The translations under genes were made by a program, and so were the position numbers. Below are positions 16,115 through 25,972 of a DNA stretch of 40,419 nt, in pieces. Under the pieces are notes generated by a model. The model was not told the DNA's origin, ran no database searches, and saw only the letters and a program-made list of their open reading frames with translations. The stretch comes from Candidatus Sulfotelmatobacter sp. Lineage in GTDB: Bacteria; Acidobacteriota; Terriglobia; Terriglobales; Acidobacteriaceae. Numbering within the stretch: position 1 is the first letter of the stretch; each line of letters begins with the position of its first letter. The DNA is taken from contig JASHQK010000682.1 in NCBI GenBank assembly GCA_030039195.1, forward strand, positions 1 to 40,419, in the 5' to 3' direction.

Positions 16115-16849
16115 CTAAGCCGAGGTCTGTTTCTCTGCGATTGAGCTTCGATATGCTTCCGGCAATCCGCTCTCGATCACGGCGCGAACTTTTTCCATCA
16201 GGCACTCGCGGCTGCCGAAATCCTCCGGCTCGATGGGTGGATGGAAGATCAATTTCACGGGGCCGGGCTTGATGGCGAATCGCCCTTTGGGCATCGCATA
16301 ATGCGTGCCCACGATGGTCATGGGGACGACCGGAACGCCGCACTCCGTTGCCAGATAAAACGGCCCTTTCTTGAAGGGCAGCAGCTTGCCGTCGAACGAG
16401 CGCCTACCCTCGACGTAAATCGTCATGTTCAGACCCTGCGCCACGACTTGTTTCGCGGCCGTGACCGCTTCGATGCCGGCATCGCGGTTGCCGCGATCCA
16501 CCGGAACCAGCGATCCCGTGCGCATGGCGCGGCCGAGAATGGGAGTCTTGAACAGCTCTTTCTTCACCATCACAGAGGTGCGCCGCGGAATGCGCGGAAT
16601 CTGAATCGGCGGATCGAGATTCGACGCATGGTTGGTCATGAAAATGTAGCTGCGCGCCGGATCGATGTGGTCGAGGCCGATGGTTTCGACCCACACTCCT
16701 GCCAGTTGCACTCCGGTTTTGGCGCCCCAGGTGAACATGCGGTATAGCAGGCTGACGTCGCCGCTGATAAACGTCCAGGTGAATCCGATCAGCGCGGCCA
16801 GCGGAGCGGCGACCGCCCAGAAGGTGAGCATGATTATGGTTCGGATCAT
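16115..16849 (-). CDS. plsC: 1-acyl-sn-glycerol-3-phosphate acyltransferase (PlsC family)
   Basis: A 244-residue membrane-associated acyltransferase. Residues 5-30 form a hydrophobic anchor. The catalytic H(X)4D motif is H74-D79 in TNHASNLDPP. The second block is KKELFKTPILGRAM, the third is the glycerol-phosphate-binding YVEGRRSFDG (about 140), and the fourth is VPVVPMTIVGTHYAMPKG. PlsC acylates lysophosphatidic acid to phosphatidic acid at the inner membrane. Its ATG overlaps the stop of the M61 protease gene (ATGA), so it is the last gene of the dapF-ldcA-mpl-M61-plsC run. Its link to murein recycling is unclear; the order may simply be an envelope-maintenance operon. Confidence 0.9.
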   Translation of the reverse strand: MIRTIIMLTFWAVAAPLAALIGFTWTFISGDVSLLYRMFTWGAKTGVQLAGVWVETIGLDHIDPARSYIFMTNHASNLDPPIQIPRIPRRTSVMVKKELFKTPILGRAMRTGSLVPVDRGNRDAGIEAVTAAKQVVAQGLNMTIYVEGRRSFDGKLLPFKKGPFYLATECGVPVVPMTIVGTHYAMPKGRFAIKPGPVKLIFHPPIEPEDFGSRECLMEKVRAVIESGLPEAYRSSIAEKQTSA

Positions 16850-18729
16850 TTTGCGACCGATCCCATCTTGCCTGGCGCAGTCGCTCCGATGTGTTGATCA
16901 GGAGATTCGGCTTTGCCCTTGAGCCACGCGGCTCTCAAGGCGCGTTGATCAGGAGTGACCTTGTCGAGATCCTGTAATTCGTACGAGATTTCCTCACGGG
17001 TTCCGACCTGCCATTTCAGTTCGCGCTCGGTGCCGCGGCGCCCGCGCACTTTGACGGTCAGGGTGTCGCCAGCATGCAGGCTATACAGTGCCTGGCGCGA
17101 TTCCTGTCCGCCCGGTTTGCCCTGCAGTTCCAAAATCGTGTCCCCGGCCTGCAAGCCGGCACGCTCCGCAGGGCTGCCGAGAGTAACCTCTTCGACGGTC
17201 ATCGGTCCATCAAAATTGCGAGAGGCGATGAATCCAGCATCTGGGACGTTGTCTGTGACGGTTGCCACATGAAGCCCGACTGCGCGGAAGAAGTCGTCCC
17301 AGGGGATCTCCTCGGTCCCGGCTACATATTTGCTGAAGAACCAGCCTAGATCGGCATGACTGACGGCCTCGGCGGCTTCACGCACACCCTCGGAATCATT
17401 GAACAATCGGCCCTGCCTGGCGTAGTGGAGGTTCATCCATTCGAGGACTTCGCGCAGAGAGGCGCGATCGTGGCTGGCCTGGCGCACGGCGAGGTCGAGC
17501 GCCACGCCCAATAGCGCACCCTTGTTGTAGTACGAGACGCTGCGCTCGGGACGACGATAGTACGGATTCCCTTCCAGCCACGCATCGAGGCTGGAATCTT
17601 CCGCCGATTGCGTCAAGTGGGCAGGACGGCTTTCCAATTCCGAGATCTCCGCGCCGAGCACGTTCAGATATCCCTTTTCGTCGAGCAGTCCGGCGCGCAA
17701 TTCAATCGTGTTTTCCACCGTGCTGGTCACGCCTTCGCTGAACCACAGCGCGCGAGTGTAATTTTCCTTGGTGTAATCCACCGGCTCGAGAGTCTGCGGA
17801 CGAATGCGCTTTACGTTCCAAAGATGAAAAAATTCATGTGCGCTCACGGTATCAAACGGGTAGAGACTCTGCTTCAAAATGTTGGCGTTGAGTTCGATCG
17901 CGGTGGAATAGGCGTGCTCCATACCGCCTCCGCCTGCCCCGCGCGGGAAATGATAGAAGAACGTGTAGGTGTCGAAGGGACGGTCGTTCATCCAGCTGAT
18001 CGCGGCGGCGACAATCTTCTGCAGGTCGGCGGTAAGCTTTGTCATGTCGTAGTCCGCGGGATCGGCGTCCACAATCACGCGAAAGTGCCCGCCGGATTCG
18101 TCGAAATCCGATTCCTGAAAAGTTCCCAGTTCGAAGGGCGAGTCGACCAGGCGGTCATAATTTTCCGCGGAGAAGCCGCCATCGGGAAGGGAAGCGAGCG
18201 GCGTGGCGATTCGCCAGCCCGCGGGAACATGGCTGAAACTCACGCGCAGCGGCGCGTTGCGGGCATCGACCGGGTACATGAGAATTTCGGCAAGATTGAA
18301 GAACGCGTGATGCGAATTCAATTGCGCGCCGAACGGTCCGGGCGAGTCCACGTAAATCTGGTACTCGATCACGGCTCCGCTTTCTGTGCCTTCCACTTGC
18401 CAGCGGCTGGTATTGATGGCGTGCACGGGCAGAGCCTTGCCGGAACGGTCTTTGGCGCGAACCCAATCCACATACTGCGCGAAATCGCGAACCTGATAGA
18501 GCGCGTTCCATACCGGAAGCTGCAGCTCCCGTTGCGCCGCTCCCGGCGGAAGAATGATCTCGACTTCGACCAGATGCTGCTCCGGGGAAGTGAGCGAGAT
18601 CGTGTAGCCGACAATCGCAACCTGAGCGGCTGCCGCCAGCGTCAGAAAAAAAAAGAAGCTGAACGGGACAAGGCGGAAAGCGTTCCGCGCAAGCGTACTG
18701 CGACGCGAATTCTCTCGAAGAAGGTTCAT
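16846..18729 (-). CDS. M61 family metallopeptidase with PDZ domain, secreted
   Basis: A 627-residue protein with a hydrophobic signal/anchor (about residues 18-36). The N-terminal M61 beta domain runs to about 240, and the catalytic domain has the zinc motif SAHEFFHLWNVKRIRP (H298, E299, H302) followed by the WFSEGVTSTVEN glutamate region. A PDZ domain near 500-580 has VTLGSPAERAGLQAGDTILEL. M61 enzymes (glycyl aminopeptidase family) remove N-terminal Gly or Ala from peptides. The PDZ domain may select substrates. Its ATG directly abuts the stop of mpl with no gap, and its end overlaps plsC by four bases. A role in trimming periplasmic peptides would fit the murein context, but that is inference. 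Confidence 0.9.
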   Translation of the reverse strand: MNLLRENSRRSTLARNAFRLVPFSFFFFLTLAAAAQVAIVGYTISLTSPEQHLVEVEIILPPGAAQRELQLPVWNALYQVRDFAQYVDWVRAKDRSGKALPVHAINTSRWQVEGTESGAVIEYQIYVDSPGPFGAQLNSHHAFFNLAEILMYPVDARNAPLRVSFSHVPAGWRIATPLASLPDGGFSAENYDRLVDSPFELGTFQESDFDESGGHFRVIVDADPADYDMTKLTADLQKIVAAAISWMNDRPFDTYTFFYHFPRGAGGGGMEHAYSTAIELNANILKQSLYPFDTVSAHEFFHLWNVKRIRPQTLEPVDYTKENYTRALWFSEGVTSTVENTIELRAGLLDEKGYLNVLGAEISELESRPAHLTQSAEDSSLDAWLEGNPYYRRPERSVSYYNKGALLGVALDLAVRQASHDRASLREVLEWMNLHYARQGRLFNDSEGVREAAEAVSHADLGWFFSKYVAGTEEIPWDDFFRAVGLHVATVTDNVPDAGFIASRNFDGPMTVEEVTLGSPAERAGLQAGDTILELQGKPGGQESRQALYSLHAGDTLTVKVRGRRGTERELKWQVGTREEISYELQDLDKVTPDQRALRAAWLKGKAESPDQHIGATAPGKMGSVAK

Positions 18730-20196
18730 TCAGTCTCGTTGTGTTGCGACAGCAGAAATTGTTTCCGAGGTCAATTCTCGTAGTCGTGCGGGCAGCTTCT
18801 CATAGATTCCACCGAAGCCGCCATTGGAAAGGATGGCCACGACGTCTCCGCTGCGCATTTCCGGAGCAACGGTTTTGACGATGGTATCGGCATCGGGCAA
18901 GAGACGCGCCCGACGGCCGTTGCGCTCGATTTCGGCGGCCAACGCCGGGAGTTCGAGACGTTCATTTTTGGGCACGGCTTCGGAGCGGAACACGCCGGCA
19001 ACTACGATTTCATCGGCCAACGCCAGGCTGCGCGCGAGATCGTTTTGCAAGATGCGGCGGCGTAAAGTGTTGGAACGCGGTTCGAGGATCGCCCACAACC
19101 GCGCGCCGGCGTAACGCCCCCGCAGCGCTTTCAGAGTGCCTGCGATCGCGGTGGGGTGGTGCGCGAAATCGTCGATAATCGTGATGCCGTTGACTTGTGC
19201 TTTGACTTCGAGACGGCGCTTCACGCTCTTGAATGTGTTCAACGCAGCCGCGATGGCTTCGCAGGGAATGCCACAGGAAAGAGCCATTGCGGCCGCGGCG
19301 GTCGCATTCCACACGTTGTATTCGCCGGCGAGCGCGAACTCGAACTCGCCCCACGGCCTGCCATCGTGCCGTACGGTCCAGGAAGTGCGGCCGGGCTCGA
19401 AGCGCAGATCCCCAATCTGCCAATTTGCCGGCGGAGCAATTCCGTAGCGTTCCACCGGACAGAACGCTTTGGCGAGGGATCGTTCGAGACTCGGGCTTTC
19501 CGTAGCCTCGCCGGAAGCGCCATCGAAAGCGATGATTCGTCCACGCTGTGGAACGAGATTCACGAGCCGCTTGAAAGCGGTTTCGACCGCATCGAGATCC
19601 TTGTAGATGTCGGCGTGATCGAACTCGACGGAGGTAAGGATTACGGCGTCAGGAAAGTAATGGAGAAATTTCGGACCCTTGTCGAAAAATGCGGTGTCGT
19701 ACTCGTCGCCTTCCAGAATGAAGTGCTTGCCCGAGCCGAGATGAAAGCTGGAACCGAAATTTTCCGCGATGCCGCCAATGAGAAAGGAGGGATCGAGGCC
19801 GGCGGAATGAAAAATCCATGACAGCATGGATGTGGTGGTGGTCTTGCCGTGGGTTCCGGCGACTACGATCACTTCTTTTCCACGCAGGAATTCGTCATGC
19901 AGGAGTTGCGGCAGCGAGCAAAAATCGATGCGCTGATCGAGCACGCGTTCCAGTTCCACATTGCCGCGCGAGATCGCGTTGCCAATGACGACCAGTTCCG
20001 GTGCAGGTTCGAGATTCTTCACGTCAAAGGGTTGCGCGACCGGAATGCCTAAGTCGCGCAGGAAATCGGACATGGGCGGATAGGCGGCGGCATCGGAACC
20101 GGTCACGCGGAAGCCGCGCTCCTTCAGCATTCCAGCGAGCGAGGCCATCGCTGTGCCGCAGATGCCGATCAGGTGAATGTGTTTTGGCTTGTTCAT
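18730..20196 (-). CDS. mpl: UDP-N-acetylmuramate:tripeptide ligase Mpl
   Basis: A 488-residue Mur-ligase family protein from the ATG at 20196 (MNKPKHIHLIGICGTAMASL). A TTG at 20217 overlapping the ldcA stop is an alternative start. The N-terminal Rossmann domain has GICGTAMASLAGMLK and the VTGSDAAAYPPMSDFL segment diagnostic of Mpl/MurC. The P-loop is VAGTHGKTTTTSML, followed by EGDEYDTAFFDKGPKFLHY, which is typical of Mpl rather than MurC, and by DDFAHHPTAI. Mpl ligates recycled L-Ala-gamma-D-Glu-meso-DAP to UDP-MurNAc, bypassing de novo peptide synthesis. It lies between ldcA, which makes the tripeptide from tetrapeptide, and the M61 protease. The context is murein recycling in the cytoplasm. 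Confidence 0.93.
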   Translation of the reverse strand: MNKPKHIHLIGICGTAMASLAGMLKERGFRVTGSDAAAYPPMSDFLRDLGIPVAQPFDVKNLEPAPELVVIGNAISRGNVELERVLDQRIDFCSLPQLLHDEFLRGKEVIVVAGTHGKTTTTSMLSWIFHSAGLDPSFLIGGIAENFGSSFHLGSGKHFILEGDEYDTAFFDKGPKFLHYFPDAVILTSVEFDHADIYKDLDAVETAFKRLVNLVPQRGRIIAFDGASGEATESPSLERSLAKAFCPVERYGIAPPANWQIGDLRFEPGRTSWTVRHDGRPWGEFEFALAGEYNVWNATAAAAMALSCGIPCEAIAAALNTFKSVKRRLEVKAQVNGITIIDDFAHHPTAIAGTLKALRGRYAGARLWAILEPRSNTLRRRILQNDLARSLALADEIVVAGVFRSEAVPKNERLELPALAAEIERNGRRARLLPDADTIVKTVAPEMRSGDVVAILSNGGFGGIYEKLPARLRELTSETISAVATQRD

Positions 20197-20213
20197 CTGC
20201 GCAAGCGTTTTTC

Positions 20214-21185
20214 TCAAGCTTCGACTGCCGATTCCAAAATTCTAAGTCCGACCTGAGGGCCATTTACAGTCAGCCTCGCTTTCACGCCCAAGGGAAGCGT
20301 GATGTTTCGCGATGTGACATGACCCGAGCGAACCCCGAACGCGACCGGCACTCCCAAACGGCCGATGATACGCATGATCACTTCTTCTAGAGTGTAGCCT
20401 TGGTTGGGGGTTTGGACACAATGAAGCATCTCGCCGAAGACGAGTCCGCGTACGTGATCGAGATGACCGGCGAGTTTCAGTTGCATCAGCATACGATCGA
20501 TCTGAAAGGGCTTGGTCGCCACGTCTTCGAGAAAGAGAATTGAGCCTGCCGTTTTGACTTCGTAGGGCGTGCCAAGCGAGGCGGCGAGCAGCGACAAGCA
20601 ACCGCCGTACAAAATACCTTCGACTTCTCCGTTGACCAGGCCACGCGACTCGGATCCAATCGGTACATCCCAAGGCGTAGAAGACGAAACCGCTTGCTGC
20701 CAGGACGAGAGCTCGACGCCGTCTTCGTGCGCCCAGTCTTTGGCGATCATGGGAGCATGGAAGGTGACGAGATTGCCAGCGTCGGCGAAGTACGCGAGCA
20801 GGGAAGTGATGTCGCTGTAGCCGGCGAAAATCTTAGGATTGGCGGTGACCTTTTTCAGGTTGAGTTTGTTGAGCAGATAATTGGCGCCGTATCCGCCGCG
20901 CCCGCAGAGAATGGCACGCACATCGTCGCGGTCAAACATTTCTTCGAGTTCGCGAACGCGCCGTTCAAGCGATCCGGCGAAATACAGATCTTTGTCGAGG
21001 ATGGAATCAAAGTAGAAAGGACGATATCCTGCGCGGCGCAGCGCCTCGCAACCCGATCGCAGATCTTCTTCGCGAATATTGCTCGCAGGCGCAACGATCG
21101 CGACGGTATCTCCGGGATGAAGCGCCGGCGGCTTCAGGCGGGCCTTGCGGCGCTGCGTTCGAGTGCGGTGTTGGCGAGCTGGCAT
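20214..21185 (-). CDS. ldcA: LD-carboxypeptidase, S66 family
   Basis: A 323-residue serine peptidase of the S66 family. It opens with a basic leader, then LHPGDTVAIVAPASNI. The nucleophile is Ser124 in FAGYSDITSLLAYF, and the Ser-Glu-His triad is completed by Glu220 in LFLEDVATKPFQIDRML and His289 in VRSGHVTSRN. The CGRGGYGANYLL motif (about residues 94-105) is conserved. LdcA removes the terminal D-Ala from murein tetrapeptides, giving the tripeptide that Mpl uses. MccF-type microcin immunity is the main alternative in this family, but the adjacent mpl makes the recycling role more likely. No signal peptide is evident, consistent with a cytoplasmic enzyme. The start ATG at 21185 follows the dapF-like gene after 64 nt. 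Confidence 0.92.
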   Translation of the reverse strand: MPARQHRTRTQRRKARLKPPALHPGDTVAIVAPASNIREEDLRSGCEALRRAGYRPFYFDSILDKDLYFAGSLERRVRELEEMFDRDDVRAILCGRGGYGANYLLNKLNLKKVTANPKIFAGYSDITSLLAYFADAGNLVTFHAPMIAKDWAHEDGVELSSWQQAVSSSTPWDVPIGSESRGLVNGEVEGILYGGCLSLLAASLGTPYEVKTAGSILFLEDVATKPFQIDRMLMQLKLAGHLDHVRGLVFGEMLHCVQTPNQGYTLEEVIMRIIGRLGVPVAFGVRSGHVTSRNITLPLGVKARLTVNGPQVGLRILESAVEA

Positions 21186-21249: not shown

Positions 21250-22053
21250 TCAATCCACGAGAAATTCGCCACGACAGATCAAGTGCGCTGTTCCGCGCAG
21301 AAAAATGATCTTTCCTTCCTTGCGAACGAACTGCGTGCCGCCGGCTGCATGAACCTTGATCGGCGACTCCGCGCGTTGAGTGGTAATGGCAGCCACGGCA
21401 GCCGCGCACGAACCCGTGCCGGAAGACCGCGTCTCGCCCGCGCCGCGCTCAAAAAAGCGCACGTTTACATCGTGCTTGCCGCGCATTTCCGCGAATTCCA
21501 CGTTGACACCGTGTTGCGCGAAATGAGGATTGCGCTGGACTTCCAGCGCGCGAGACTGCCAGTCGTCGGGAAAATGATGAACGAAAATCACGATGTGCGG
21601 ATTTCCCATCGAGACCGGAATACTGCGCACGTTGCCGCCGCGAATTTTTATAGCGACCTCGGGCTGTACCGTGGCTTCGCCCATCTCAGTTTCAAATTCA
21701 TATTCGGAATCGCGGCGGGATGTGAGAGTGCAGAGTCTTGTTCCCGCGCCGGTGAGAATCGCGATGCGCTCCTTGCCCTGCGCAGAGCAAACGTAGGCGG
21801 CGACACACCGCGTACCATTACCCGAAATTTCCGCTGGCGAACCGTCGGCGTTGATCAGCGTGATTTCCAGGTCGGCTGAGAAATGCGGCGACATCCACTC
21901 GACGCCGTCGGCGCCTACGCCTTCGTGGCGATCACAAATCCGGCGCGTGAACGCGGCCATGTCCTGAGGAGCTAAGGCGCGGTCGATCAACAGGAAGTCA
22001 TTGCCGCAGGCGCTGGCTTTGACGAACGGAATGCTGCGTGCCTCAGAGTTCAC
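21250..22053 (-). CDS. dapF: DapF-like epimerase-fold protein with both catalytic Cys replaced by Ser
   Basis: A 267-residue DapF-fold protein. The GTG start at 22053 is supported by GGGGAG five bases upstream. Family landmarks are present: FVKASACGNDFLLID (about 10-24), INADGSPAEISGNGTRC (about 68-83), VSMGNPHIVIFV (about 147-158) and ERGAGETRSSGTGSCAAAVA (about 202-221). In DapF the bases are Cys of xCGNG and Cys of xCGSG. Here these positions read S77 (TCG codon) and S211 (TCC codon), as I confirmed from the nucleotides. An unusual Cys16 sits in ACGND, where DapF normally has GLGND. It may be a variant epimerase, a lyase/dehydratase-like enzyme, or inactive. It heads the ldcA-mpl operon, so a murein or diaminopimelate substrate is likely. 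The family call is secure; the epimerase activity is not. Confidence 0.85.
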   Translation of the reverse strand: MNSEARSIPFVKASACGNDFLLIDRALAPQDMAAFTRRICDRHEGVGADGVEWMSPHFSADLEITLINADGSPAEISGNGTRCVAAYVCSAQGKERIAILTGAGTRLCTLTSRRDSEYEFETEMGEATVQPEVAIKIRGGNVRSIPVSMGNPHIVIFVHHFPDDWQSRALEVQRNPHFAQHGVNVEFAEMRGKHDVNVRFFERGAGETRSSGTGSCAAAVAAITTQRAESPIKVHAAGGTQFVRKEGKIIFLRGTAHLICRGEFLVD

Positions 22054-22179: not shown

Positions 22180-23883
22180 TTACCGCGTCGAGTACAGGAA
22201 GGCGCGCCGCTGGCCGAGGACGTGAATTTCAACGATCGCTTTCAGATGAGCCTCTTGAGCCGCATGCCAGACTGGACCGCCCTCGAACGCCACAACATAG
22301 TCAGCATACTTCGCCGGATCAGCCAAAGCCCGTTCCCACAAACCGTCGGGATCGATCGGCCGTTTCCACACGCGATGATTCCCCTCATTGATGACGTGGC
22401 TAAGCGGAATGCCGGCTTGCTCGAGTGCGCCCACATGATCTCCGAGATACATGAGCAGGGTCGCGTTGGGCGGCAACTTTTCCAGCCATTCTGCGACCTG
22501 GGTTTCCAGTTGATTGCGGCTGCGCATATTGATCCGGGCTTCCTGCAGGCAAATTGGGCCAGATCGCCAGATGGACACATAACTGACTACAACAAGCGCA
22601 ACGACGCCAATGACAATTCCCACACGCGCTTTCTCATTCCAGTGTTTGGAGCGCACCGCGACGTACATGAGCGCGGCCAATCCGGCGGCAAACGCAGGCA
22701 AGAGTTGCAATCCGTAACGCACGTTGTAATGCGTATGAGGCCAGAATTCGGGGACAAAAATAGGCACGCCTCCGTATGCCACCGAGAGCGTGTAGAAAGG
22801 CAGCGGCACGAGCAGGAAGAGCAGCGCCAGACGTGCACGGGATTCCGCAGCGCGACGACGAAGACTGATTGCGACAAACACAATTCCCGCCCCTGCCAAT
22901 AGCAGCCAGAGCCGGCCCAGCCAGGGGTTTGCGGCGACATTGTCGTCGCCGGATTTGAGAACGTACATGCCGGCGACCGCAAGATTCCCGCTGCCCGGAT
23001 GGCCGGGATTGGTTGCATTCTGCGTTCTTTGTTCGATTGCTTTTGCGGAATAAGGACCATTTTCAAATTCGAGCGGATTGCGATAGACGACTCCGTTGTA
23101 AGCCAGCCAGAGAACCGGCCCGGCGGCGGCCAACAAAACAAACTTGGCGATCGCGTCGCGTTTGTAGAGGACCGAGTCTGTCGCATCCGGCGAATGTCTG
23201 GAGCTAAAACTCCATAGGAGAACAGTTGCGACCATCGCTGCGGCGAGGAACCATCCGTCATAGCGCGTCAGACACGCCGCAAAGAGACACAGTCCGCATT
23301 TGGTAAGCGCATTCTTCTGGTCGCGCGCAGCTTCGCTGAAATAAACGACGGCCCAGACGAAGAATGCGACATAGACAGACTCGCCCATGGCGGTCGTTTG
23401 CATGTAAATCAGGTTGGGGTTTGCGGCAAAGACCAGGGCCGCAGTCCACGCGGCGAATGGTGAAGCAAGATCGATCGGGCTATCAGATAAGAAGGCGCCG
23501 CGCACGAGCCGGAACATGCCGACTACCGCCCATGCATATGCGATTAGCGAGGGAATCGACCCTCCCACGCCGCGCCGCCACATTTCCTTCGAGATTACAA
23601 AAGGAATCATCAAAAGATGAGGCAGGGGAAGCCAGACCGTCCCCAGCTGCAGCAGGCCCGGAGTTTTCGAATCGAAGACACGCCGCGCGATATTGATGTG
23701 AGCGACGGCATCGCCATAGAGCATTACGTCACCCTGCCGGAAGTAAAAGAGGAAAGAAATGACGGAGACGCAGGTAGCAAGCCACAACAAAAGCCGGCTT
23801 TGGTCGTCCCACGGAGAGCCGGGCGGCCCAGTTCGTCGTGAATTCCTCTTGGCGGTCGGCTTTTGGAATGCGAGTTTGGGCAT
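22180..23883 (-). CDS. Polytopic membrane glycosyltransferase-like protein (GT39/ArnT-like)
   Basis: A 567-residue protein from the ATG at 23883 (MPKLAFQKP). The frame continues upstream to 24024, but those 47 residues are translated from intergenic repeats (they read PEPVEG, a known hallmark of a dispersed repeat) and should not be included. After a hydrophilic head, about ten hydrophobic segments follow. The first loop holds YGDAVAHINIARRV, with the acidic residue expected of GT-C glycosyltransferases, and a soluble C-terminal part (about 470-567) lies outside the membrane. This layout resembles dolichyl-phosphate-mannose/ArnT-type enzymes that use polyprenyl-phosphate sugars, but I do not recognise a specific family. 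It lies downstream of the pfkB gene on the same strand, separated by repeats, so it is probably a separate unit. Confidence 0.7.
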   Translation of the reverse strand: MPKLAFQKPTAKRNSRRTGPPGSPWDDQSRLLLWLATCVSVISFLFYFRQGDVMLYGDAVAHINIARRVFDSKTPGLLQLGTVWLPLPHLLMIPFVISKEMWRRGVGGSIPSLIAYAWAVVGMFRLVRGAFLSDSPIDLASPFAAWTAALVFAANPNLIYMQTTAMGESVYVAFFVWAVVYFSEAARDQKNALTKCGLCLFAACLTRYDGWFLAAAMVATVLLWSFSSRHSPDATDSVLYKRDAIAKFVLLAAAGPVLWLAYNGVVYRNPLEFENGPYSAKAIEQRTQNATNPGHPGSGNLAVAGMYVLKSGDDNVAANPWLGRLWLLLAGAGIVFVAISLRRRAAESRARLALLFLLVPLPFYTLSVAYGGVPIFVPEFWPHTHYNVRYGLQLLPAFAAGLAALMYVAVRSKHWNEKARVGIVIGVVALVVVSYVSIWRSGPICLQEARINMRSRNQLETQVAEWLEKLPPNATLLMYLGDHVGALEQAGIPLSHVINEGNHRVWKRPIDPDGLWERALADPAKYADYVVAFEGGPVWHAAQEAHLKAIVEIHVLGQRRAFLYSTR

Positions 23884-23958
23884 CTGGTGACGATGCGGTG
23901 AAAGTGTTGTTGCGCGCGAGATCCCCGTCCGGCTCGCTCGCTCCGTTCGAAAATCCAA

Positions 23959-24016
23959 CCCTTCGACAGGCTCAGGGCGGGCCTTCTCGCAAACCGGCGA
24001 GAAGTGGGGCACCCCA
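23959..24016 (-). repeat. Bipartite palindrome element copy 2 with adjoining CTTCGACAGGCTCAGG repeat
   Basis: On the minus strand, TGGGG-TG-CCCCA (24016-24005) is followed by CTTCTCGC, loop CGGTTT, GCGAGAAG (24004-23983). This is the same order and nearly the same sequence as 271-307. It is directly followed by the well-known dispersed repeat whose plus strand reads CCCTTCGACAGGCTCAGGGC (23959-23978). It lies 44 nt after the pfkB stop. These repeats create the spurious N-terminal extension of the downstream gene. Confidence 0.75.
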
Positions 24017-24060
24017 TTCTTCATTTTTGCTTCGGTGCGCGAAAAACTATTTTCTGCGGA

Positions 24061-24984
24061 CTAGTCGAGATGAGTCAATTCGCGGAAGACCTGGAAGCGG
24101 GCATCAATCTCGTCGCGGGTTAAACATTGCAGGCGCTCGGTGCCGAAGCGCTCGACAGCAAACGATCCCATCACGCCGCCGTAAAAGAGCGCGCGTTTCA
24201 GAGCCTCGCGGCTTACCTGCTTTTGCGACGCGAGATAACCCATGAAGCCGCCGGCGAAGGAGTCGCCTGCGCCGGTCGGATCTTTTACCTCCTCGATGGG
24301 CAGCGCGGGCGCGCGAAAAGGATGATGTCCAATGCCGAACGCTCCTTCGCGGAAGAAAATCGTTGCGCCGTATTCTCCGTGCTTGATGACCAGCGCGCGA
24401 GGGCCCATGGCCAGAACCTTGTTCGCGGCGCGAGGCAGGTTGGTCTCGTGGGCGAGCATCTTGGCTTCGGTGTCGTTGATGAGCAGCACGTCGACCAACT
24501 TCAAAGTCACGGCGAGTTCTTTCGGCGTGCGGTTGATCCAGTAATTCATGGTGTCACAGCCGGTGAGGCGAACTTCATTCATGATGCGGCGGACATCCGC
24601 CTGCAGCGTGGGTTGGATGTTGGCCAGAAACAGAAACTCCGTGTCTTCGTATTCTTTCGGAATCCGCGGCTGAAATGTCTCGAAAACGTTGAGATCGGTG
24701 AAAGTGGTTTTGGCTTCGTTGAGATTGTCGGAGTACGATCCGCCCCAGCGAAACGTCTTGCCCTGAGCGCGTTCGATGCCGCGCGTATCGATGCCATGCT
24801 TTCGGAATACGTCTTCTTCCTTTGGGCCGAAGTCTTCGCCCACCACGGCGACCACGCGCACGGGCGCGAAATAGCTGGCGGCGAGGGCAAAATACGTCGC
24901 CGCCCCACCGAGAATGTTCGCGACGCTGCCGGAAGGCGAGGTCACATCATCGAAGGCAACCGATCCAACCACGAGAATGCTCAT
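24061..24984 (-). CDS. PfkB family carbohydrate/nucleoside kinase
   Basis: A 307-residue ribokinase-fold kinase. The N-terminal region has GSVAFDDVTSP and NILGGAATYFALAASYF, with the GG substrate-lid motif. The C-terminal signature is VKDPTGAGDSFAGGFMGYL with catalytic base Asp241. A central INDTEAKML segment is also typical. PfkB enzymes phosphorylate sugars or nucleosides; the substrate cannot be read from the sequence. It starts 24 nt after the stop of the MTA phosphorylase gene, preceded by AGGAG, so the two form one transcript. This may indicate salvage of a product of 5'-methylthioadenosine or another nucleoside, for example a ribose derivative or adenosine. That link is inference only. 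Confidence 0.88.
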   Translation of the reverse strand: MSILVVGSVAFDDVTSPSGSVANILGGAATYFALAASYFAPVRVVAVVGEDFGPKEEDVFRKHGIDTRGIERAQGKTFRWGGSYSDNLNEAKTTFTDLNVFETFQPRIPKEYEDTEFLFLANIQPTLQADVRRIMNEVRLTGCDTMNYWINRTPKELAVTLKLVDVLLINDTEAKMLAHETNLPRAANKVLAMGPRALVIKHGEYGATIFFREGAFGIGHHPFRAPALPIEEVKDPTGAGDSFAGGFMGYLASQKQVSREALKRALFYGGVMGSFAVERFGTERLQCLTRDEIDARFQVFRELTHLD

Positions 24985-25008
24985 GCGCGATCTTGCTCCT
25001 GGTGCGGG

Positions 25009-25887
25009 CTAGTTTGCTTTAATTTTCTGCAGGTACTTTCCAACGATCAGATTCAGCTTTTTCTTGGTTGCCGGAGGAATTTTCTTGGGATCGCTGAGGA
25101 TGGCATGAGCCACGGCCGATCCGCAGCCGCAGCCGCGCTCGCGGGGAATCGCACCCACCGTCTCGCGCACAACCTTGCACGCGTTCTCGGCATTTTTGAG
25201 GAGCACGGCCACGACCTGATCGACCGTGACTGAATCGTGGTGCGGATGCCAGCAATCGTAGTCCGTGACCATGGCCACTGTCACGTAGCAGAGCTCGGCC
25301 TCGCGCGCCAGTTTGGCTTCTTGCAGGTTCGTCATGCCGATGACGTCCATGCCCAGACCGCGGTAGACATTCGATTCGGCCTTGGTTGAAAACTGGGGAC
25401 CCTCCATGCAGACGTAAGTTCCGCCGTGCTTGCCGACAACGCCAACTCTGTTGCAAGCTGCTTCGACCACACCTGCCAGTTCCGCGCACACGGGATCGGC
25501 AAAGGCGATGTGAGCGACGAGGCCATCGCCGAAAAAGGTGTCGACGCGATGCCGGGTGCGGTCGAAGAATTGATCAGGAATGAGGAACTCCAACGGCTTG
25601 TGTTCTTCCTTGAGGGAGCCGACCGCCGAAATGGAAACAATGCGCTCGACGCCCAGTTGCTTAAAACCGTGAATGTTGGCGCGAAAATTCAACTCGCTTG
25701 GCAACAGACGATGGCCGCGTCCATGCCGGGCCAGAAATGCAACTTTACGTCCTTCCAGTGTGCCGCAGACGTAAGCATCGGAAGGCGGACCAAAGGGCGT
25801 ACGCAGGCGTACTTCCTTCACTTTGGTTAGCCCGGGCATGGAATACAACCCGCTGCCGCCGATGATGCCAATTTCCGCTTGTGGCAA
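25009..25887 (-). CDS. mtnP: S-methyl-5'-thioadenosine phosphorylase
   Basis: A 292-residue protein taken from the TTG at 25887, four bases after GGAGG (25892-25896). The frame extends to another TTG at 25920, which would place that ribosome-binding site inside the gene. It begins [19 protein letters not shown]. It shows phosphate-binding [34 protein letters not shown], the nucleoside-site block [19 protein letters not shown], and the purine-site [18 protein letters not shown] with VTDYDCWH. MtnP splits 5'-methylthioadenosine from polyamine and other SAM-dependent pathways into adenine and 5-methylthioribose-1-phosphate. No other methionine-salvage genes are next to it; a PfkB kinase follows in the same operon. 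Confidence 0.93.
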
Positions 25888-25972
25888 TGCGCCTCCAGAG
25901 AGATCGCCTCGAAAAGTCAAACCCGTGATTATACAGGACGAGAGTAACCCAAATTCTGACCAAAGCCCGCCA

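Follow-up and report, generated by a model that had tools for sequence, protein, structure and literature searches.

Diaminopimelate (DAP) epimerase, DapF, serves bacteria in making an amino acid of the cell wall. DapF proteins with serine in place of both catalytic cysteines are widespread in Acidobacteriota, and their sequences suggest that this natural serine-type DapF is probably functional. The window, the whole stretch of 40,419 nucleotides that was analysed, encodes one of them. We consider it fairly likely that its gene specifies a serine-type variant of DapF, in which two serines would form the acid-base pair of a functioning LL-/meso-DAP epimerase, the activity being predicted from sequence comparison and a structural model. 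We found no description of a serine-type DapF, or of an all-serine epimerase, in the open-access literature searched.

The dapF-like gene (21250..22053, reverse strand) begins with a GTG start codon and encodes 267 amino acids. The protein scores 189.2 bits against the DapF profile TIGR00652 (cut-off 114.65) and 139.9 bits against PF01678 (cut-off 34.7). A Pfam scan at E-values up to 0.001 returned PF01678 alone, and assignment to the proline racemase superfamily or the PhzF family was rejected, as was a bifunctional DapF/glutamate racemase (NF038284, 80.5 bits versus a cut-off of 350). The AlphaFold2 model, made of the window protein alone from 83 sequences, has the DapF fold with a mean pLDDT of 97.1. 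The best match in the fold search is the cyanobacterial DapF 9mro (Z 36.3, rmsd 1.5, 252 aligned residues), and 3ejx is also a DapF. The O-ureidoserine racemase 7vdy comes next at Z 34.9, followed by other DapFs. Relatives of proline racemase score Z 28.0 or less, and PhzF chains Z 26-27.

The catalytic motifs of the window protein read EISGNGTRC and RSSGTGSC. The initial annotation had placed serine at both catalytic cysteine positions, and codon reading together with alignment to E. coli K-12 DapF bears this out. Ser77 (codon TCG, 21823..21825, reverse strand) pairs with E. coli Cys73, and Ser211 (codon TCC, 21421..21423, reverse strand) pairs with Cys217; the sequences of solved DapF structures agree. 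Both serines sit just before predicted helices (78-92 and 212-224, secondary structure by DSSP). The two thiols of an ordinary DapF are therefore missing. The PROSITE signature PDOC01029, N-x-(DN)-(GS)-x-x(4)-C-(GI)-N, holds the first catalytic cysteine (PMC8225329); compared by eye, the window protein departs from it with Ser77 in place of that cysteine. Cys16 (codon 22006..22008, reverse strand) lies in the motif ACGND as described earlier, and pairs with E. coli Leu9. The concern that other cysteines might occupy the catalytic positions can be set aside: Cys83 corresponds to Cys79 of E. coli and Cys216 to Cys222, and a Cys/Cys enzyme therefore has both of them too. Hereafter, pairs such as Cys/Ser give the residues at sites 77 and 211 in that order.

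Downstream of dapF, after a gap of 64 bp and on the same strand, lies an ldcA-like gene (peptidase S66, muramoyltetrapeptide carboxypeptidase-like; 20214..21185, reverse strand). Its product matches PF02016 and PF17676 above cut-off and reaches 161.3 bits against NF008424, under the cut-off of 378. The ldcA-like gene overlaps by 4 bp with mpl, encoding the UDP-MurNAc:L-Ala-gamma-D-Glu-meso-DAP ligase (18730..20217, reverse strand; TIGR01081, 447.3 bits, cut-off 388.7). An M61 peptidase with a PDZ domain, recognized by Pfam, directly follows mpl (16846..18729, reverse strand), and an acyltransferase gene comes after it on the dapF strand. Upstream of dapF is a gene for a 614 amino acid membrane protein (22180..24024, reverse strand). 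Its likeness to PMT_2 glycosyltransferases is sub-threshold (PF13231, E-value 0.0072). Among the dapF neighbors found, members of its family occur most often (41/88 loci). Further upstream, at 24061-25920 and on the same strand as dapF, are a PfkB-family kinase and an S-methyl-5'-thioadenosine phosphorylase, and a kinase of PfkB look occurs near dapF in 30 of the 88 loci. The arrangement of dapF directly upstream of ldcA and mpl, which the initial annotation had read as a murein-recycling operon, is present at this locus but is not the general context: an mpl-like gene is near dapF in 18/88 loci and an ldcA-like gene in 17/88. All 88-locus neighbor counts are lower bounds, as the choice of open reading frames picked up dapF itself in 73/88. 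We rejected gene neighbors as a guide to function since the neighborhood differs between loci. In some Aminicenantes loci (L153, L157, and L159) a protein that by eye looks like a glutamate racemase is found near the Ser/Ser dapF.

The genome to which the window belongs (6.35 Mb, 724 contigs, 90.8% complete, 6.1% contamination) was searched with profiles for a second, canonical dapF, as the initial annotation had proposed, and no other PF01678 protein was found at this completeness. In a first survey, 38 of 41 genomes, including this one, had a PF01678 match. Loci were read from 29 of the 37 matching relatives. One of them, L019, ends before site 77, and the other 28, in which both sites can be read, are without exception Ser/Ser. 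L002 duplicates L001 and was dropped. For the census that followed, 198 genomes that are at least 85% complete were drawn evenly from the phylum. Five had no TIGR00652 match and were dropped, and one DapF was read from each of the other 193. The result was 110 Ser/Ser, 80 Cys/Cys, and 3 Cys/Ser, with no Ser/Cys and no residue besides serine or cysteine (no Ala, Gly, or Thr) at either site in these 193 genomes. Of the 65 families distinguished by their codes, 37 contain nothing but Ser/Ser, 23 nothing but Cys/Cys, and 3 nothing but Cys/Ser; the other 2 hold more than one state. Ser/Ser is thus a conserved group among the acidobacterial homologs, and its presence in 110/193 genomes means that neither chance nor sequencing error explains the serines. 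The Ser/Ser DapF is the sole TIGR00652 match in 105 of these 110 genomes. The five with further matches are four of family f25 and one other genome (G189).

Family f25 contains a strongly divergent Cys/Cys DapF (L251, L252, L291, and L293-L303), and all 14 of those read fall below the TIGR00652 cut-off. Four other f25 genomes (G100, G110, G135, and G232) contain additional DapF matches besides a Ser/Ser DapF. We also scanned contigs across GTDB with a pattern for the first serine. The best 80 of 566 confirmed relatives comprise 79 Ser/Ser and one Ser/Cys (L206). They belong to Acidobacteria groups, among which we include Aminicenantes and Saccharicenans, apart from one bacterium without a group and an Actinomycetes MAG, the source of L206. 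These 80 were ranked by likeness to the window query, so absence elsewhere cannot be read from the ranking.

Apart from the two cysteines, the DAP-contact residues are all present in the window protein, in line with the earlier impression that substrate-binding residues are kept. In Anabaena DapF the contacts are Asn13, Asn66, Gly76, Asn77, Asn164, Asn197, Glu215, Arg216, Gly225, and Thr226 (PMC12039745). We followed this contact set through the main type of Ser/Ser protein, represented by 167 non-redundant sequences. Seven positions (N18, N68, G78, N151, N184, E202, and R203) are each kept in 167/167, N79 is kept in 165 and G212 in 163, and position 213 is T in 141 or S in 26. The DAP site of these proteins is therefore intact apart from the two thiols. 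Left out of this set is a pair of Ser/Ser proteins from family f6, in which Asn151 is replaced by V or L, as in many Cys/Cys proteins of the f6 type. This second Ser/Ser group, which has lost Asn151 and has V at position 200, speaks against our favored reading.

TCN and AGY serine codons are more than one substitution apart. Across 215 Ser/Ser sequences of the phylum, site 77 is encoded by TCN in 198 and AGC in 17, and site 211 by TCN in 202 and AGC in 13. Both kinds of codon occur at site 77 within family f1. Because serine is kept across the two codon blocks, it appears to be selected as such at both sites.

The serine forms extend to a second phylum, that of the Actinomycetes MAG carrying L206 (genome G237), which we take as Actinomycetota. 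The exact motif with a TCN serine was found in 18 of 396 genomes of this phylum (11 Ser/Cys and 7 Ser/Ser); as these loci were found by a pattern that demands serine, they were kept out of all frequencies. An even draw of 60 genomes gave 57 with a DapF and three without a match. In 55 of these, both sites could be read in the best copy, giving 42 Cys/Cys, 6 Cys/Ser, 6 Ser/Cys, and 1 Ser/Ser, where the Ser/Cys count includes G237, the center of the draw, chosen for the serine of L206 (without it, 5/54). Two loci (L388 and L389) are readable at the second site alone, with Cys in both, and were dropped from the counts. Three genomes hold a Ser/Ser paralog in addition to another copy, which is Cys/Cys in G260 and G289 and Ser/Cys in G400. 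The Ser/Ser paralogs L367, L372, and L390, from three genomes of the second phylum, have S-A-A-G instead of S-G-T-G in the second motif and possibly differ in function. Natural Cys/Ser DapFs occur in both phyla (L086, L223, and L276; L359, L368-L370, L373, and L380).

Trees were built by a quick method with SH-aLRT support only, from subsets thinned by identity to 111, 128, and 153 rows. The 153-row tree was made without the columns under test and without L248, which has a long branch. At least 17 changes are required to explain the four states on this tree (8 at site 77 and 13 at site 211 when each is counted by itself). The well-supported branches alone force at least four changes of the Ser/Ser label, whether gains or losses. 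In two further trees, from one of which L248 was likewise left out, 65 rows making up the main Ser/Ser group form a single clade with a support of 94, which is not a starred branch. This clade does not include L096 and L123, two Ser/Ser rows placed close to E. coli, nor the f6 pair, which falls with Cys/Cys rows of a different type and has Cys/Ser rows in its vicinity.

The best sign that each serine may be a tuned, working part of the protein is that each site has its own co-varying partner residue. When alignment columns were ranked against the state of each site, site 211 was tracked by position 200, which is Val206 in E. coli, and site 77 by position 66, which is Ile62 there. The window protein has Phe200 (codon 21454..21456, reverse strand) and Leu66 (codon 21856..21858, reverse strand). 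In the 153 rows, a bulky residue (F, I, L, Y, M, or W) is found at position 200 in 0/69 Cys/Cys, 1/13 Ser/Cys, 9/9 Cys/Ser, and 57/62 Ser/Ser proteins. Leu or Ile is found at position 66 in 10/69 Cys/Cys, 0/9 Cys/Ser, 13/13 Ser/Cys, and 55/62 Ser/Ser proteins. The unthinned set gives the same picture for position 200, with a bulky residue in 220/227 Ser/Ser, 9/9 Cys/Ser, 2/16 Ser/Cys, and 0/123 Cys/Cys. Each of the nine natural Cys/Ser DapFs has Ile or Phe where E. coli has Val206. The five Ser/Ser exceptions at position 200 among the 62 rows include the f6 pair (V) and the paralogs L367 and L390 (S).

In simulations of the traits along the tree, an association as strong as the observed one arose in 0 of 1000 runs both for 200 with 211 and for 66 with 77. 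The two positions had been picked by ranking all 267 columns of the same sequences that were later fed into the simulation, and the 0/1000 figures are uncorrected for this selection. The cross pairs are weaker (site 77 with 200, 2/1000; site 211 with 66, 20/1000). Columns 215 (with site 211) and 21 (with site 77) were likewise reached in 0/1000, with a weaker association. A paired test on starred branches had 4 and 5 pairs and was not significant, with almost none in the opposite direction. Positions 66 and 200 each lie exactly 11 residues before their serine, and the model places them on strands 62-68 and 195-202. Such matching spacing is what would be expected of equivalent residues from the internal pseudosymmetry of DapF. 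Judging from the alignment and the model, the partner residues would touch the serines as part of a second shell.

LysA and Mpl act on meso-DAP. We looked at the surrounding pathway in 71 of the 193 census genomes, hand-chosen at about one per family (43 Ser/Ser, 25 Cys/Cys, and 3 Cys/Ser). LysA is above cut-off in 38 of the 71: 30/43 Ser/Ser, 8/25 Cys/Cys, and 0/3 Cys/Ser. The 13 Ser/Ser genomes without LysA above cut-off count against the favored reading. Ddh has some match in 17/71 genomes and is above cut-off in one, the Cys/Cys genome G215. Ddh was rejected as a bypass, with 0/43 Ser/Ser genomes above cut-off. The genome of the window itself has LysA at 510.6 bits and no Ddh match. DapL is above its strict cut-off of 593 bits in 0/71 genomes, and 53 have lower matches (E-values up to 1e-60). 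A genome with a Ser/Ser DapF, LysA, and no Ddh would need an LL-to-meso epimerase, and DapF is the sole candidate seen. In the open-access literature searched we found no statement on meso-DAP in acidobacterial peptidoglycan.

If the protein is an epimerase, DAP would be bound as in an ordinary DapF. Its distal amino acid end would be held by Asn68, Asn151, Asn184, Glu202, and Arg203, and its proximal carboxylate by the backbone at the starts of helices 78-92 and 212-224 (Gly78, Asn79, Gly212, and Thr213). The reacting alpha carbon would then lie between Ser77 and Ser211, placed like E. coli Cys73 and Cys217, and serine would act as the direct acid or base. One serine, its alkoxide stabilized by the helix start, would take the alpha proton, and the other would donate a proton on the opposite face, converting LL-DAP to meso-DAP for Mpl/MurE and LysA. 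This mechanism is weakened by what is reported for engineered enzymes and for serine itself. Cys-to-Ser variants of PddB have <0.1% activity, with M. tuberculosis DapF cited as similar (PMC8225329), and the activity of HisR C67S and C209S is greatly reduced (PMC11602996). A serine hydroxyl, with a pKa of about 16 versus 10 for a thiol, is also a far weaker acid (PMC8225329). There is a precedent for one serine in such a pair in a natural Ser/Cys relative of proline racemase, described as a 4-hydroxyproline epimerase (PMC4113996).

The initial annotation had offered a variant epimerase using another base, a lyase or hydratase, or a binding protein, with Cys16 as a possible replacement base. Cys16 finds no support in that role: it is lineage-specific, present in 52 of 211 distinct Ser/Ser proteins, and was rejected as a compensating base; residue 16 in the others is mostly L, Y, A, F, or N. 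The wider idea of an epimerase that works with Cys40, Cys83, or a water activated by a neighboring acid, with the serines serving just for positioning, seems to us distinctly unlikely. Cys40 occurs in 203, Cys83 in 195, and Cys216 in 134 of the 211, and no cysteine column is universal among them. What weighs for this alternative, and against the favored reading, is that Cys40 or Cys83 is present in 211/211, Cys40 being the sole cysteine of one Ser/Ser protein (L239). However, both are also frequent in Cys/Cys proteins (55/62 and 51/62; 61 from the phylum plus E. coli) and are not specific to the serine form, E. coli DapF has Ala at the Cys40 position, and the co-variation singles out sites 77 and 211. 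Nor did the 167-protein set contain a universal new acidic or basic residue specific to Ser/Ser proteins. E75 (147/167) and H43 (130/167) were rejected as unspecific, as they occur in 37/42 and 18/42 Cys/Cys proteins belonging to this subtype (E. coli and 41 from the second phylum).

It is also unlikely, in our judgment, that the Ser/Ser protein binds DAP or a DAP peptide without epimerizing it, as a lyase, a dehydratase, or a binding or regulatory protein, with an unrecognized enzyme making meso-DAP. The loss of both thiols, the nearly dead engineered serine mutants (PMC8225329), and the paralogs found beside Cys/Cys or Ser/Cys copies would fit such a role, as would a natural Ser/Thr member of the proline racemase superfamily, described as a dehydratase and not an epimerase (PMC4113996). 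The role of lyase or binding protein is made less likely by the genomes, where the Ser/Ser DapF is the sole TIGR00652 match in 105/110 and occurs with LysA in 30/43 and Ddh in 0/43 above cut-off. The seven invariant DAP-contact positions, the retention of serine over two codon blocks, and the absence of Ala, Gly, and Thr at both sites in the census also argue against it. A change to a different amino acid substrate is known for proteins of the same fold such as PddB, CntK, HisR, and O-ureidoserine racemase; substrate shifts have recurred among DapF-like proteins (PMC8225329; PMC11602996), and 7vdy is within Z 1.5 of our best fold match. We think this very improbable here given that the distal contacts (N68, N151, N184, E202, and R203) are invariant in 167/167 proteins, and that the protein is usually the sole DapF match in its genome. 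An artifact, whether sequencing error, pseudogene, or contaminant contig, might be suspected from the fragmented assembly and its contamination level. The chance of this is negligible: the same two serines in 28/28 first-survey loci and in 110/193 census genomes already refute an error at both codons, and the conserved residues show a strong purifying pattern.

The favored reading of a Ser/Ser epimerase can be set beside known enzymes. The protein shares TIGR00652, the predicted fold, the DAP contacts, and usually a single copy per genome with the Cys/Cys DapFs of E. coli, H. influenzae, Arabidopsis, and Anabaena, but it has Ser at both sites, Phe at the position of E. coli Val206, and Leu at that of Ile62. 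The Ser/Cys 4-hydroxyproline 2-epimerase has the same fold class, a natural serine, and a 1,1-proton transfer, but belongs to another branch of the superfamily, acts on another substrate, and has serine at one position (PMC4113996). The Ser/Thr trans-3-hydroxyproline dehydratase B9K4G4, also of this fold class, has Cys at neither position, but it catalyzes dehydration rather than epimerization and has Thr, not Ser, at the second position (PMC4113996). The laboratory mutants of DapF, C73S and C217S (PDB 2q9h and 2q9j), have serine in a catalytic position of the DapF fold. They are engineered and changed at one site each, whereas the serines of the window DapF are natural, at both sites, and accompanied by co-varying residues.

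DapF is the textbook cofactor-free enzyme that pulls an alpha proton with a weak thiolate. That proton has a pKa of about 29 (PMC12039745). We can propose more tentatively that a thiol-free, two-serine, cofactor-independent epimerase, apparently of more than one origin, may be the sole DAP epimerase across much of Acidobacteriota, each site switching between Cys and Ser alone with its own partner 11 residues earlier. If Ser/Ser forms do work, the thiol pair would be dispensable, and models based on thiolate pKa would need revision. The DapF of C. glutamicum is described as having a redox switch, a disulfide formed between the two catalytic cysteines, and Cys-to-Ala changes leave it with almost no activity (PMC5296763). 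A Ser/Ser form would be unable to make this disulfide. DapF is also an antibacterial target, and aziridine inhibitors attach covalently to its cysteines (PMC12039745). The Ser/Ser form would have no thiol for aziridino-DAP to alkylate, and such enzymes would probably escape covalent attachment. Annotation rules that demand cysteine would miscall the protein that appears to be the principal DAP epimerase in much of the Acidobacteriota, an abundant soil phylum. The Ser/Ser DapF found in so many relatives suggests that the textbook two-cysteine mechanism may not be the sole one.
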